DNA from: Planctomycetota bacterium
GTDB taxonomy: Bacteria; Planctomycetota; Planctomycetia; Gemmatales; Gemmataceae
Length of the DNA stretch: 41,614 nt
Direction: 5' to 3'
Assembly: GCA_016872595.1 (NCBI GenBank)
Contig: VGZJ01000018.1
Span: 1-41,614 of the forward strand
The first letter of the stretch is position 1; the number at the start of each line of letters is the position of its first letter. Made by a program: the position numbers and the translations under genes. Below the pieces are notes generated by a model. The model was not told the DNA's origin and made no database searches. It saw nothing but the letters and a program-made list of their open reading frames with translations. Shown here one piece after another: positions 6,437 to 9,981 of the stretch.

Positions 6437-7306
6437 TCAATCCGCCAGAATCATACACTTCGGCAGTGCCTTCCGCAGCTCGGCGATCCCTTCGGCCGTG
6501 ACGCGCGAGCCGCGCGTGTCGATGAACCCCAACTTCTTGCAGTTGTAAATGTGGACGAGGCCCGCGTCCGAAACCGGCGTGTTGTAGATGCTGAACCGCG
6601 TCAGGTTCGTGTGCCCGGCGAGGTGGGCCATGCCCTTGTTCGTGACCAGCGAGTGCGCGAGATCGAGGAACGACAGTTTCTTCAAGTCCTTCAGGTGTTC
6701 CATCCCCACGTCGGTGAGCAGAATGTGGCCCAGCGCGAGTGATTCGAGCGACGTGCAGTTCTTCAGGTACGCGATGCCGGTGTCGCTGATGTCGGTGTCG
6801 TTCAGGCTCAGGTGCTGAAGCCCCTTGCAGTCGGCCAGATGCGCCAACCCGCCGTCGTTGATGCGGGCGTTCTTGTCGAGCGTGACGCGCGTCAGCGTGA
6901 ACGGCGTCTTCGGCAGTTCCTCGGCCTTGAACACTTCGGGACGGCGGTTGCTGATGTTGATGACCGCGCCGATGGACAGCAGGTATTCCGCGGCCTTGCG
7001 GTCGGCCTCGCCGTCGGGCTTCGGCGGCGGCGCGGGCGCGTCCGGCCTCGGGCGCGGCGGCGGCGCGACCTCGACCGGCTTGTCCTTCTTCGATTCGGGC
7101 GGCGCGGCCGGCTCGTCGGGCTTGCGGGGCTTGCTCAGGATCGCCGCGCCCGCGGCCAGCGCGACCATGAACGCGACGACCCCGCCCGCGATCAGCACCA
7201 CCTTCCGCCCCGACGCCCGCGGCGGCGGTGTCGCGCGCGCGGGCCGCGCGCCGCCTTCCTCGATGAGGTAAGGGGCGTCGCTCTCGTCGTCCGGCGGCTC
7301 GGGCAT
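6437..7306 (-). CDS. Membrane-anchored leucine-rich-repeat protein
   Basis: A 289-residue protein. The N-terminus is acidic and short (MPEPPDDESDAPYLIEEGG), followed by one membrane helix (KVVLIAGGVVAFMVALAAGA, about 34-56), a Pro/Lys/Asp-rich linker, and about seven leucine-rich repeats of 24 residues. Repeats such as LQHLSLNDTDISDTGIAYLK and LSFLDLAHSLVTNKGMAHLA fit the GALA/cysteine-containing-like class common in planctomycetes. Topology suggests a cytoplasmic tail with the repeats outside the cytoplasmic membrane, acting as a protein-binding surface. The gene starts 23 bases after the stop of the zinc-ribbon gene, so the two are probably one operon. The long frame continuing upstream is a GC-rich artefact over the zinc-ribbon gene. 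The ligand is unknown. Confidence 0.8.
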   Translation of the reverse strand: MPEPPDDESDAPYLIEEGGARPARATPPPRASGRKVVLIAGGVVAFMVALAAGAAILSKPRKPDEPAAPPESKKDKPVEVAPPPRPRPDAPAPPPKPDGEADRKAAEYLLSIGAVINISNRRPEVFKAEELPKTPFTLTRVTLDKNARINDGGLAHLADCKGLQHLSLNDTDISDTGIAYLKNCTSLESLALGHILLTDVGMEHLKDLKKLSFLDLAHSLVTNKGMAHLAGHTNLTRFSIYNTPVSDAGLVHIYNCKKLGFIDTRGSRVTAEGIAELRKALPKCMILAD

Positions 7307-7329
7307 GGGTTGGATTCTCGGTTCGTGGG

Positions 7330-8010
7330 TCAGTCGTCGTCGGATTCGATGGGTGTCATACGAAACTCCGCGCGGTTCCGATAGAGGACGACGCACGACC
7401 CGACGGCACACACGATCTCGAACACCCCCAGCGCGATCACATACGGGTTGTCGCTCGCCACGACCGCGGGCAGGTACGCCTGCGCCATGAGGCACATCCA
7501 GCAGAACGCGGCGATCCGCGCCCAGCGCTTGCGCCGCCACAGTCCTACGCCGGTCACGGTCAGACCGAGGCCCATCGCCGCCAGCACCACCGTGAACACC
7601 ATGAACACGGGCAGGCAGAAATTGGCAATCGCGACCGAACAGCCGTGCGGCGGGTACTCGCGCACGGTGCCGTCCTTCTGGACGACGCGCGTCGGCTCGC
7701 GCGCCTTCTGCCGCGCATATTCGATGGAGACCGTCAGCCCGACGCCGACCGCGGCGTGAAGCGCGCCCATTGTGATGACGAACACCGCGACCACCGACAC
7801 GGCGACCGTGCGCGTCGGGGCCGGGCGCGGCGGGGGCGGTAGGAACGAGTCGCCGTCCGCGGGGTCGGGTTCGGGCGCGTCGGGCGCGTCGGGCGCGTCG
7901 GGCGCGTCGGGCGCGTCCGCGAACCGATTCTTGCACGCGGGGCAGCGCGCGCGGCGCTCCTCGTCCTTCGTGAGCGGAACCGAACAGTGCGGGCAAAACG
8001 TCACGGCCAC
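7330..8010 (-). CDS. Zinc-ribbon multi-pass membrane protein
   Basis: A 226-residue protein starting at GTG 8010. A rubredoxin-like zinc ribbon at the N-terminus uses C6-x2-C9 and C23-x2-C26 (FCPHCS, RCPACKN). Then come a repeated Asp-Ala-Pro stretch, a Pro-rich linker, and three to four hydrophobic segments (AVSVVAVFVITMGALHAAVG, NFCLPVFMVFTVVLAAMGLG, IAAFCWMCLMAQAYLPAVVA, VIALGVFEIVCAVGSCVVLY). The family is not one I can name; similar zinc-ribbon plus membrane proteins are frequent in planctomycetes and mostly uncharacterised. It heads a two-gene unit with the leucine-rich-repeat protein. Its upstream region holds the GTTGCACAAC array. Confidence 0.75.
   Translation of the reverse strand: MAVTFCPHCSVPLTKDEERRARCPACKNRFADAPDAPDAPDAPDAPEPDPADGDSFLPPPPRPAPTRTVAVSVVAVFVITMGALHAAVGVGLTVSIEYARQKAREPTRVVQKDGTVREYPPHGCSVAIANFCLPVFMVFTVVLAAMGLGLTVTGVGLWRRKRWARIAAFCWMCLMAQAYLPAVVASDNPYVIALGVFEIVCAVGSCVVLYRNRAEFRMTPIESDDD
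7873..7917 (-). repeat. 9-bp tandem repeat inside the zinc-ribbon gene
   Basis: GGGCGCGTC is repeated five times without interruption and encodes Asp-Ala-Pro in the linker between the zinc ribbon and the membrane domain. The unit is a multiple of three, so length changes keep the frame. Confidence 0.95.
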
Positions 8011-8098
8011 GGCGGTCGCCCCAGCGTTAGGTGTGCGCCGCGCCAGCGTAACCCGCCGCCCGGCGGGGGGCTACTCCCGAAAGGGGAAAAACAAAATC

Positions 8099-8362
8099 GG
8101 TTGCACAACGCCCCGGACCGAAGTGCCACATCGCGAAAACGGTTGCACAACGCCCCCGAAGCGGCGCAAATCGGAATCGGTTGCACAACGGGTGCGCCGC
8201 GACCGACAGCGCGCGTCGCTGATGTGGCACAAATCGAAATCGGTTGCACAACACCCGCGCGCCGGTCGTGCGAGCGCGGCGGCGAACCCGGCGGGTAAGC
8301 GCCGGGGTGGTTGCACAACGCCCGCGCCGCCGAAGTTGCAAAAGGAACAGTTGTAGTACAAC
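8099..8362. repeat. Array of five GTTGCACAAC palindromes plus a variant
   Basis: GGTTGCACAAC occurs at 8099-8109, 8141-8151, 8179-8189, 8242-8252 and 8309-8319. A related perfect palindrome, GTTGTA-G-TACAAC, lies at 8350-8362. Each core is an inverted repeat (GTTG-CA-CAAC). Three copies are preceded by similar A-rich words (AAAATC, GGAATC, GAAATC), and GTGGCACAAATC sits before the fourth. Distances between starts are 42, 38, 63, 67 and 41 bases. The array lies between the stop of the 176-aa gene and the start of the zinc-ribbon gene, so it is either operator DNA or leader RNA of the latter. The rest of the 514-base gap (8011-8524) contains no gene that I can support. Confidence 0.85.
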
Positions 8363-8462
8363 TCGCGCATATCAGAATGTCCCGTTCGGAGGGGGCGCGC
8401 GGCGCGCGGCCCCACACGAACCGCCCGGTCGCGGTGACGGCTCGCGGCACTTCCTATCGAAT

Positions 8463-8489
8463 ACTATACGCGCGTTCGATGCGGATCAA
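8463..8489 (-). promoter_or_regulatory. Candidate promoter reading toward the zinc-ribbon operon
   Basis: Leftward, TTGATC (complement of 8484-8489) and TATAGT (complement of 8463-8468) are separated by 15 bases, in an AT-richer patch. The spacing is short, so this is a weak call. If used, the transcript would carry the whole palindrome array in a leader of roughly 450 bases. Confidence 0.3.
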
Positions 8490-8524
8490 GGTTGGATGTG
8501 GAAAATTGAACAGTAGTGACGTCG

Positions 8525-9055
8525 TCACGCGGGGTCGCGCTGGGCCACGACCCACCAGCCGCCGGCCGCGGCCGGGGTCAGGTACAGGGCCGCCTTCGGC
8601 GCGACCGCCCGGACGCGGTGCATGGGGCACGCCGCCGCGTCGTGCGGGCACCGAAAGTCCGTACCCAGACGGCCCGTTGCCAACACCTCTTGCGCGGCGT
8701 CCGCGAGCTGGTAAATGTGGAACGTGCGGAACACCGCGAACCGCGACATGACGACGACCTCTTCGTGTTCCACGAGGTACTCGTAGCGGTCGTCGAACCA
8801 GTCGTGCTTCTCCTCTTGGCGCGCGTCGTCGCGCGGAACGAACCGCCCGCCGCGCGCGGCCGGCACCTGTTCCCACGTGTCCGCGTCCCCAACTTCGTCG
8901 GGTTGCGGGGCGAAGAGGTGCGATTCCCGCCGCTCGTCCCACTGCTCCGCCGCGCCCCGGCGTTCGGTGTCGGTGAGCGCGCGCCACCACCGTTCGACCG
9001 CGGGCAGGGCGTCGGCGGGAACCGCCGCGCGGACATCGGCCGGAAGCTCGTCCAT
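8525..9055 (-). CDS. Hypothetical protein of 176 residues
   Basis: Leftward frame with ATG 9055 preceded by GGAG at 8 bases and base composition typical of the window. The product begins MDELPADVRAAVPADALPAV and has an acidic, aromatic middle (DWFDDRYEYLVEHEEVVVMS) and a C-terminal Cys/His cluster (FRCPHDAAACPMHRVRAV) that might bind a metal. There is no signal peptide or membrane segment, so it is probably cytoplasmic. I do not recognise the family. It stands alone, with the palindrome array beyond its stop and the low-GC patch upstream of it. Confidence 0.65.
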   Translation of the reverse strand: MDELPADVRAAVPADALPAVERWWRALTDTERRGAAEQWDERRESHLFAPQPDEVGDADTWEQVPAARGGRFVPRDDARQEEKHDWFDDRYEYLVEHEEVVVMSRFAVFRTFHIYQLADAAQEVLATGRLGTDFRCPHDAAACPMHRVRAVAPKAALYLTPAAAGGWWVVAQRDPA

Positions 9056-9126
9056 ACGCGCGCTCCGTTCCGTTCGGTCTCACAACCCCTTAACGCTGTG
9101 TGCGCGGTGTGCGGTTGTAAGACTCC

Positions 9127-9318
9127 TCACCCGCCGCTCGCAAAGCCTCGTGGCGACTGAGGGGTCTTGGGGCAACCTAAGGCACGAGCGCAGAGCAATT
9201 CTACCAGAACACTCACCCTTGCTGGCAGTGCGGGTTGGTCGATCAATAATCCGCCGTTGCCGAAGTAGCCGAGCAGCGCCCCGTCTTCTTCCCAATGGAT
9301 GTAGTTGATGGATTGCAA
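9127..9318 (-). pseudogene. Decayed HicB-like antitoxin fragment
   Basis: Leftward, the segment INYIHWEEDGALLGYF matches the start of HicB-type antitoxin domains (pattern YIHWEEDGxxLGYLxEYPDYWTQGE). The expected ADYW and QGE-like residues then appear in other frames (a GATTATTGA where Asp-Tyr-Trp is expected, then AAGGGTGAG), so at least two frame changes and a stop have broken the gene. No HicA toxin partner is recognisable next to it. The identification depends on a short stretch and is tentative. Confidence 0.35.
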
Positions 9319-9366
9319 TCAGCGCACCCCCTTCAAGCAGCTGAGGAATTGGAGATTCGCTGCTAT

Positions 9367-9981
9367 TCATTTGGGTAGCTTCTTGGTTTCTGGTCCGATT
9401 GAGAAAGAGCAGTTCGCGGCCTTCAGCAGCTGTAGTGTGCGACCTAGCTGTGAGTTTGAAGGCGTTGTGTTCAGGTTCGGCAGTAGCTCCGTCAGCATGT
9501 CTGCGAGCGCGAGCAATCGCACCGGGTTGCCTTGTAACGCCGACTGGAACCGAGGATACGATTCCCAATGAGTTCGGTCGCCTTTGATCGCGGTTACAGC
9601 CGTGATGTATGTAAACTCAGTGCAACTAGTGGCAGACCTAACGGCCGCCAGAAACGCCTCGCTCCATTTGGGTATCATCAGTTCGCGGAACGCTCTCCAA
9701 GCTTCACGGCCAGAGACGATCTTGTTTTGCTCCAATTCCGTGATCTTCGTCGAGACTTGGAATCCCGTTTGCCAGCTTTTGCAACTCACGACGACAACTC
9801 GGTCGTAGCCCTTCAACGCGGGATGGAATCCGAGCACATCGATGTCGCTGTGATTCGAGTCTTGCTTGCTGTCATAGTCAGGATGAGTTTCACGCGGAAG
9901 GAACTTGAGGTTGTGGCGCGTGAAGTAGCCCTTCGCTTGAAGGTAATCATCCACGAGTTGTTCAAGGATGTCTTCTTTCAT
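9367..9981 (-). CDS. PD-(D/E)XK-like restriction endonuclease-type protein
   Basis: A 204-residue protein in a compositionally different patch (32 of 60 bases are G or C in 9601-9660). The N-terminal part (MKEDILEQLVDDYLQAKGYF) and the motif pair SDIDVLG (D46/D48) and VVVVSCKSW (K68) follow the layout of Mrr-like or related nucleases, where an Asp on one strand is followed by (D/E)-x-K on the next. Here the acidic residue two before the lysine is Ser66, so the active site may be altered or the acid supplied elsewhere. The C-terminal half is helical with no recognised domain. It starts 26 bases after the stop of the 1324-aa gene, on the same strand. No methyltransferase is nearby, so a stand-alone nuclease or defence role is inference. 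Confidence 0.5.
   Translation of the reverse strand: MKEDILEQLVDDYLQAKGYFTRHNLKFLPRETHPDYDSKQDSNHSDIDVLGFHPALKGYDRVVVVSCKSWQTGFQVSTKITELEQNKIVSGREAWRAFRELMIPKWSEAFLAAVRSATSCTEFTYITAVTAIKGDRTHWESYPRFQSALQGNPVRLLALADMLTELLPNLNTTPSNSQLGRTLQLLKAANCSFSIGPETKKLPK

Follow-up and report, generated by a model that had tools for sequence, protein, structure and literature searches.

The window, by which we mean the whole 41,614-nucleotide stretch analyzed here, is contig 18 of a 6.8-Mb genome assembled in 590 contigs (G000; the other genomes compared carry G numbers as well, and L numbers denote loci). The closest named matches of its GyrA are a Planctomycetia MAG (88%) and Gemmata genomes (81 to 82%), and judged by this protein the source organism is Gemmata-like. 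Within the window, a zinc-ribbon gene and a 176-aa gene, neither of which has a Pfam match, flank an array of short words (Table 1). Inside the zinc-ribbon gene, at 7879 to 7920, tandem GGGCGCGTC repeats encode a DAPDAPDAP stretch.

The initial annotation had described five exact copies of GGTTGCACAAC in the array, and all five were found, at 8099, 8141, 8179, 8242, and 8309 on the + strand; the last is preceded by a T and is therefore left out of the CGGTTGCACAAC counts given below. The 10-mer GTTGCACAAC occurs exactly five times in the window, every time inside the array. When up to 2 mismatches were allowed, 50 matches were obtained, compared with 30.4 ± 5.5 in 100 shuffles of the window, none of which reached 50. 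Distances from word to word are 42, 38, 63, and 67, and the module flanks are degenerate, in agreement with the earlier remark that the spacing is uneven and that the array is not a CRISPR. A coding repeat was rejected, since some of these distances are not divisible by three and every word falls outside the called genes. Genes were called with a home-made codon-usage caller, in which the zinc-ribbon open reading frame of the window lost to a better-scoring overlapping frame.

What had been taken for a perfect palindromic variant of the word, GTTGTAGTACAAC, is indeed present at 8350 to 8362; however, it forms part of a second type of module (B), and since the left half of the palindrome mostly differs in other B copies, it is not simply a sixth copy. 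The interval of 8099 to 8362 first assigned to the array proved too narrow, as the element extends from about 8080 to 8508. Its right end carries a conserved motif, ATAsTATAC-N16-TCAAG, which on the opposite strand reads TTGANN, 17 bp, TAsTAT. This end (P) appears shaped like a sigma-70 promoter pointing into the array, and in G000 and its relatives the sigma-70-like form has a spacer of 16 to 17 bp. Both hexamers of the window copy match the consensus at only 4 of 6 positions, and a strict consensus promoter scan of 8000 to 8560 reported no promoter, P included; one copy in G006 (L291), read by hand, has TTGACA-N17-TAGTAT. No terminator was found in the scanned stretch of the window. At another G000 locus, L017, the gene behind P is closed, ahead of the start of P, by a hairpin with TTTTT after it that looks terminator-like by eye.

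Table 1. Features of the element and of its flanking genes in the window
Feature	Position	Strand	Remarks
Whole composite element (A-modules, B-module, promoter-like end P)	8080..8508	-	Strand is the direction in which P points
A-module 1 word CGGTTGCACAAC	8098..8109	+	
A-module 2 word CGGTTGCACAAC	8140..8151	+	
A-module 3 word CGGTTGCACAAC	8178..8189	+	
A-module 4 word CGGTTGCACAAC	8241..8252	+	
A-module 5 word GGTTGCACAAC	8309..8319	+	T in front
B-module (GCCGAAGTTGCAAAAGG...GTAGTACAACTCGCGCATATCAGAATGTCC)	8328..8386	+	Similar to A
P, promoter-like end	8461..8490	-	TTGATC 8484-8489, 17-bp spacer, TAGTAT 8461-8466; reads towards lower coordinates
Zinc-ribbon gene	7330..8010	-	At far (A) end of element; start 88 bp from first A word
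176-aa gene	8525..9055	-	Stop 35 bp behind P

Copies in the genome and their surroundings

A count of the motif across the genome, which the initial annotation had proposed as a check, returned 60 copies of CGGTTGCACAAC in G000 (36 forward, 24 reverse) and none of its reversed control. The 10-mer GTTGCACAAC is present 89 times compared with 16 for its reversed control; in the 58 other genomes, it occurs 1 to 30 times each, mostly near the numbers of their own reversed controls. The surroundings of all 60 CGGTTGCACAAC sites were fetched, together with further B sites and two more 10-mer sites. After exclusion of L045 and L046, which hold isolated 10-mers without a module, 42 G000 loci were kept for the counts.

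In these loci the direction of the words is uniform within each cluster. The consensus of the A-module is, roughly, GAAGTGGCGAAATCAAAATCGGTTGCACAACGCCCGCGC, which the B consensus, GAAGTTGCAAAACGAAAAACTCTGGTACAACTGGCGCATATCAGAATGTC, resembles; a sequence-only model of B gave 46 matches in G000 at E values up to 1. Profile searches revealed the plan A(1-6)-B(0-2)-[A']-P, fixed in 31 of the 42 loci. P is the last part in all 31 loci that have it, three of these matches being weak (9 to 11 bits), and no reversed module was found in the 42 loci after overlap resolution. P went undetected at 11 loci, among them loci truncated where a contig stops and loci with just one A-module. The element measures 0.3 to 0.6 kb and occupies dozens of intergenic sites in G000; the array in the window is one copy of this dispersed composite intergenic element. 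Inverted pairs resembling those of BIMEs were seen by eye between A-modules, inside the spacers: GTAGGTGCCGC...GCGGCACCTAC at L012 and L035, and GTGGGACAGGCC...GGCCTGTCCC at L019, L020, and L031.

The initial annotation had named an equal frequency of the motif inside coding DNA as a ground for refutation. Instead, the 60 CGGTTGCACAAC words and 18 of 18 further GTTGCACAAC words lie outside called genes, although the 42 loci are 83% coding. The left (A-end) neighbor could be called at 38 loci and runs in the direction of P at 23 of them and in the opposite direction, facing the array, at 15; in 9 of these 15, the stop codon lies at most 14 bp from the first module. At the other end, 22 loci with P have a gene running towards it, whose stop codon lies no more than 21 bp from the P profile in 16 cases. 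Where both neighbors were called (34 loci), the orientations were -/- in 15, +/- in 11, -/+ in 5, and +/+ in 3. Pfam scans of 36 of 38 A-end neighbors and 4 of 38 P-end neighbors, 21 of which match any Pfam family, brought out no common functional theme. The protein encoded at L029:494-1087 belongs to a large paralogous family, with 17 to 57 matches in 17 genomes of the genus and 5 and 6 in two.

Words and modules in related genomes

The strict P motif, ATASTATACN{15,16}TCAAG, was searched for in 59 genomes and found 21 times in G000, 20 times in G018, 12 times in G006, and once in G003. There were single matches in G009, G024, and G045, where no array was seen, and none in the other 52 genomes; the reversed control matched nowhere in the 59. 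With the 16 fixed bases and one mismatch allowed, the counts were 60 in G006, 26 in G000, 23 in G018, and 9 in G003, and 0 to 2 in each of the other 15 genomes of the genus (control, 2 in total). The B model likewise found 9 matches in G018 (best E value, 2.4e-10) and weak ones in G003 (E values of 0.008 and 0.014). On reading, six of the G018 loci and both G003 loci contained modules plus P or a P-like end, and the G018 copies have a B-like end. A further G018 match, L078, proved not to be an element, and weak matches in G007 and G030 were rejected as elements, their sequence reading as coding. Two of the nine G003 matches to P were read (L079 and L080) and both are elements; several of the others have an altered box, ATTC.

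The words themselves are GTTGCACAAC in G000, GTGTTGCACAA or GTGTAGCACAAC in G018, and GTTGGCCAAC in G006. The parts in common are therefore P and the plan. The word form GTTG-NN-CAAC, a dyad, occurs in G000, in G006, and in some G018 modules. Among the 52 P copies of G006 that were read, 15 belong to a class with GTTGGCCAAC words (alpha) and 14 to a class with a different conserved body (beta), while some of the remaining copies have only a short module beside P. The G006 module next to P (GGGGCCGTTCGTTGA...) has a likely counterpart, by eye, in G000 at L012, L020, and L031. Beta-class loci L262, L265, L283, and L290 have in common a body that contains the invariant hairpin ACCGCGACGGC...GCCGAATCGCGGT; several of them end near GCTTGTTTTTCAAGC. 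At four other G006 loci (L208, L211, L268, and L275), two tandem P motifs lie about 160 to 220 bp apart within one intergenic region.

Arrays of GGCTAACA in G012 (13 pattern matches; control, 4) look alike in plan at several loci, and no P pattern was found in that genome, either strictly or with one mismatch. Intergenic words GGCTAACATT were also seen in G012, at L179 to L189, often as pairs 10 bp apart and at several loci with a TATACTA-like end; these loci are perhaps one more species-specific variant of this design.

Conservation of the word was compared with that of its flanks by using a weight matrix from which the 12 core columns had been omitted, each locus being scored by a matrix derived from all other loci. 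With a threshold of 20 for the flank score, 55 positions on the + strand passed; 53 of these keep at least 9 of the 12 core bases, 38 of them exactly, and mean identity to the consensus was 0.947 in the core compared with 0.687 in the flanks. Lowering the threshold to 14 gave 79 positions, 70 of them with at least 9 of 12 core bases (identity, 0.879 in the core and 0.652 in the flanks). Seven loci had been detected by the B pattern and not by the word; they contributed 10 positions scoring at least 14, of which 8 keep 9 to 11 of 12 core bases; the remaining 2 are ends of B-modules, which keep 0 to 1. When the same scoring was done without leaving loci out, the core was kept (at least 9 of 12) in 57 of 59 positions, and in 12 of 15 and 6 of 16 at the lower flank scores of 16 to 20 and 13 to 16, respectively, a range in which chance positions and B ends enter. 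With a core identity of 95% and a flank identity of 69%, the word has therefore been retained as the flanks around it drift, a pattern that concerted exchange between copies could produce as well.

Probable transcription, spread, and competing explanations

Searches with the Rfam 15 covariance models gave no match, either in the window from 7000 to 9500 (E values up to 1) or at seven loci (gathering score), and RNAalifold found no conserved pair on either strand of the G000 B-modules. For the G006 alpha class, an alignment of 14 of the 15 copies showed 6 pairs changed on both sides, a number reached by 0 of 500 shuffles; the alpha hairpin, a palindrome, could just as well be a site on DNA. The beta class, with 9 of its 14 copies in the alignment, gave 11 cells, reached by 3 of 500 shuffles, while by number of pairs (6) it was reached by 78 of 500. 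Both strands of the element fold better than dinucleotide shuffles. A comparison of strands, which is a weak test, gave a mean z of -2.44 in the P sense compared with -1.95 in G000 (lower in 21 of 31 elements; P = 0.026), and -2.53 compared with -2.50 in G006 (lower in 28 of 51; P = 0.61). Raw folding energy favors the P sense in 29 of 31 G000 copies and 41 of 52 G006 copies (beta class, 4 of 9), a difference that, given the result with dinucleotide shuffles, mostly reflects composition. A stable hairpin at the start of the putative transcript was not supported: on average, the first 46 nt past the promoter fold no better than shuffles in G006 (52 copies; mean z, -0.23), and the effect is weak in G000 (23 copies; mean z, -0.67). 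Weighing the form of P, the terminator-like hairpin of L017, and the G006 pairs against the contrary folding results, the absence of an Rfam match, and the negative strict promoter scan, we grade transcription as likely; the element is probably transcribed as a noncoding RNA.

These observations lead us to favor, at a probability of about 0.45, a dispersed composite intergenic repeat in which each full copy is a small transcription unit, with P directed into the module array, and in which the word is selected for recognition by a factor. A sigma-70 type promoter at one end would fire into a series of degenerate modules that all face one way, each formed around one word (GTTG-NN-CAAC in G000 and G006), and the transcript would end at, or run into, the next gene. 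In the window, RNA from P would pass B and then the A-modules and reach the zinc-ribbon gene as a long leader. Selection would maintain the word as the recognition site of a cellular factor, most likely a protein that binds DNA or RNA; between species, factor and word would have changed, while promoter and plan stayed. This account builds on the copy number, the order and orientation of modules, the motif and spacing of P, the intergenic location, the conservation of the word, and the occurrence in four species with different words. It further supposes that P is active and yields a noncoding RNA, that the word is bound by a factor, and that the copies spread in some manner. A more specific version, on which we place rather little confidence, holds that P-driven intergenic arrays exist in several species of one genus, with promoter and plan conserved and the word rewritten between species (GTTGCACAAC, GTGTTGCACAA/GTGTAGCACAAC, GTTGGCCAAC, and perhaps GGCTAACA in G012), so that dozens of copies per genome evolve together with a single, fast-changing recognition factor.

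The initial annotation had also proposed a mobile repeat, and the dispersal that this entails is supported: copies occupy dozens of loci with unrelated neighbors and are absent from the relatives read at the three loci tested. At L015, the G018 orthologue of the left gene has another gene directly after it, with no element; at L017, the gene behind P is 89.7% identical in G018, where the 600 nt read contain no element, and the element is absent from G001, G002, and G013 as well (five further loci ended too early to judge). Orthologues at L029 in G007, G011, G012, and G017 also lack it in the stretch read. A locus in common between L029 and G006 was suspected and then doubted, because the G006 protein, a possible paralogue, is missing the C terminus present in its counterparts from G000, G007, G011, G012, and G017. 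Among the copies compared, those of G018, G006, and G003 lie beside other genes than the G000 copies do, with one possible exception, L028 and G018 L215, which may be a common locus with a small extra gene between. The distribution within the genus is patchy, G007 and G015, which are close by DNA identity at L017, having 0 and 1 P. All of this, together with the resemblance among G000 copies (66 to 82% identity over 200 to 340 nt in the best 25 of 1,586 pairwise entries), would suit an intergenic repeat spread by mobility or recombination without cellular function, whose promoter and words serve its own spread or are relics. Mobility itself found no such support. In 31 elements, whose exact ends are uncertain, terminal inverted repeats were no better within elements than between different ones (mean, 6.4 and 6.5), and the longest common flank word, as a sign of target-site duplication, was 4.9 compared with 5.0 for mismatched flanks. 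Recent copies are lacking, the highest identity over at least 60 nt being 91.8%, and the better conservation of the word than of its flanks also argues against a repeat without function, which we regard as unlikely, though less so than the explanations that follow.

The same conservation, the clustering of sites, and the dyad make a binding site possible, as had been proposed, and would be expected of an array acting at the level of DNA, as an operator or a loading site for a nucleoid protein, with the transcript irrelevant. That every G000 module faces the same way with respect to P, despite the near symmetry of the site, fits poorly with such an array, as do the irregular spacing of the words and the lack of a common function among the scanned neighbors; we consider it improbable, and found no support for an operator that serves just the zinc-ribbon gene. 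The proposed leader RNA or attenuator of the A-end gene agrees with the window, where P is directed across the array towards the zinc-ribbon gene, and with the majority of left neighbors that run in the direction of P. It does not hold generally, given the 15 left genes in the opposite orientation, 9 of them with a stop codon almost at the first module, and the absence of a functional theme among the 36 scanned, so that a leader has very little probability as the explanation of the family. Chromosomal integrons have directional, species-specific repeats behind a promoter, which the element recalls, and a cassette-poor array of attC sites could be imagined. However, attC R boxes read GTTRRRY and RYYYAAC, and the 60 CGGTTGCACAAC words give GTTGCAC and GCACAAC, neither of which fits; the arrays read leave no room for gene cassettes between words, no word lies in a called gene, and there are dozens of separate arrays. 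An integron-like array is scarcely credible.

If the preferred account of a transcribed, factor-recognized repeat is true, some Gemmata-like bacteria would contain an unrecognized intergenic transcription unit in as many as about 60 copies per genome, and a conserved promoter combined with words that change between species would allow one to ask how dozens of dispersed sites change together and what recognizes the words. The genus, with its sequenced species, offers a ready comparison for word turnover. Concerted rewriting of the word, if true, would be a bacterial analogue of the turnover of satellites or hotspot words.

Comparison with known repeat families

Judging from search results, no description of the repeat was found in the literature; the 10-mer GTTGCACAAC itself appears in 19 papers, those listed being on other subjects. 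The element was assigned to no named family; the defining features of MITEs, CRISPRs, and integrons that were tested, as well as Rfam matches, were not found. With CRISPRs it has in common repeated units with unequal sequences between them, but its repeats are short and degenerate and their spacing is irregular. REP and BIME elements often lie just behind stop codons, a location that the present element shares, as it does, by eye, the BIME-like inverted pairs in some array spacers; in contrast, the A and B words are direct repeats rather than inverted ones, and P is present. In sponge RNAs of the CsrB/RsmZ type, several copies of a short word in one transcript titrate one binding protein, and a short word repeated in an otherwise variable putative transcript could do likewise; the element differs in occurring at dozens of loci per genome and in having B-modules without a common fold.

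The Correia repeats (CREE/NEMIS) of Neisseria are short, intergenic, present in many copies, and equipped with a promoter-like end, all of which applies here, whereas the element has directional word arrays and showed neither terminal inverted repeats nor target duplication. The BOX elements of Streptococcus pneumoniae are modular intergenic repeats with a fixed order and orientation and a variable number of modules, near unrelated genes. Compared by plan and not by sequence, our element resembles them in its dozens of copies, its unrelated neighbor genes, and its fixed order and orientation with variable module number, found in 31 of the 42 loci; it differs in the promoter-like end, the strongly diverged copies, and words that differ between species of one genus. 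The best reading of these comparisons is a new family of intergenic repeats with BOX-like modularity and a putative, Correia-like promoter, probably transcribed, whose words are held by selection.
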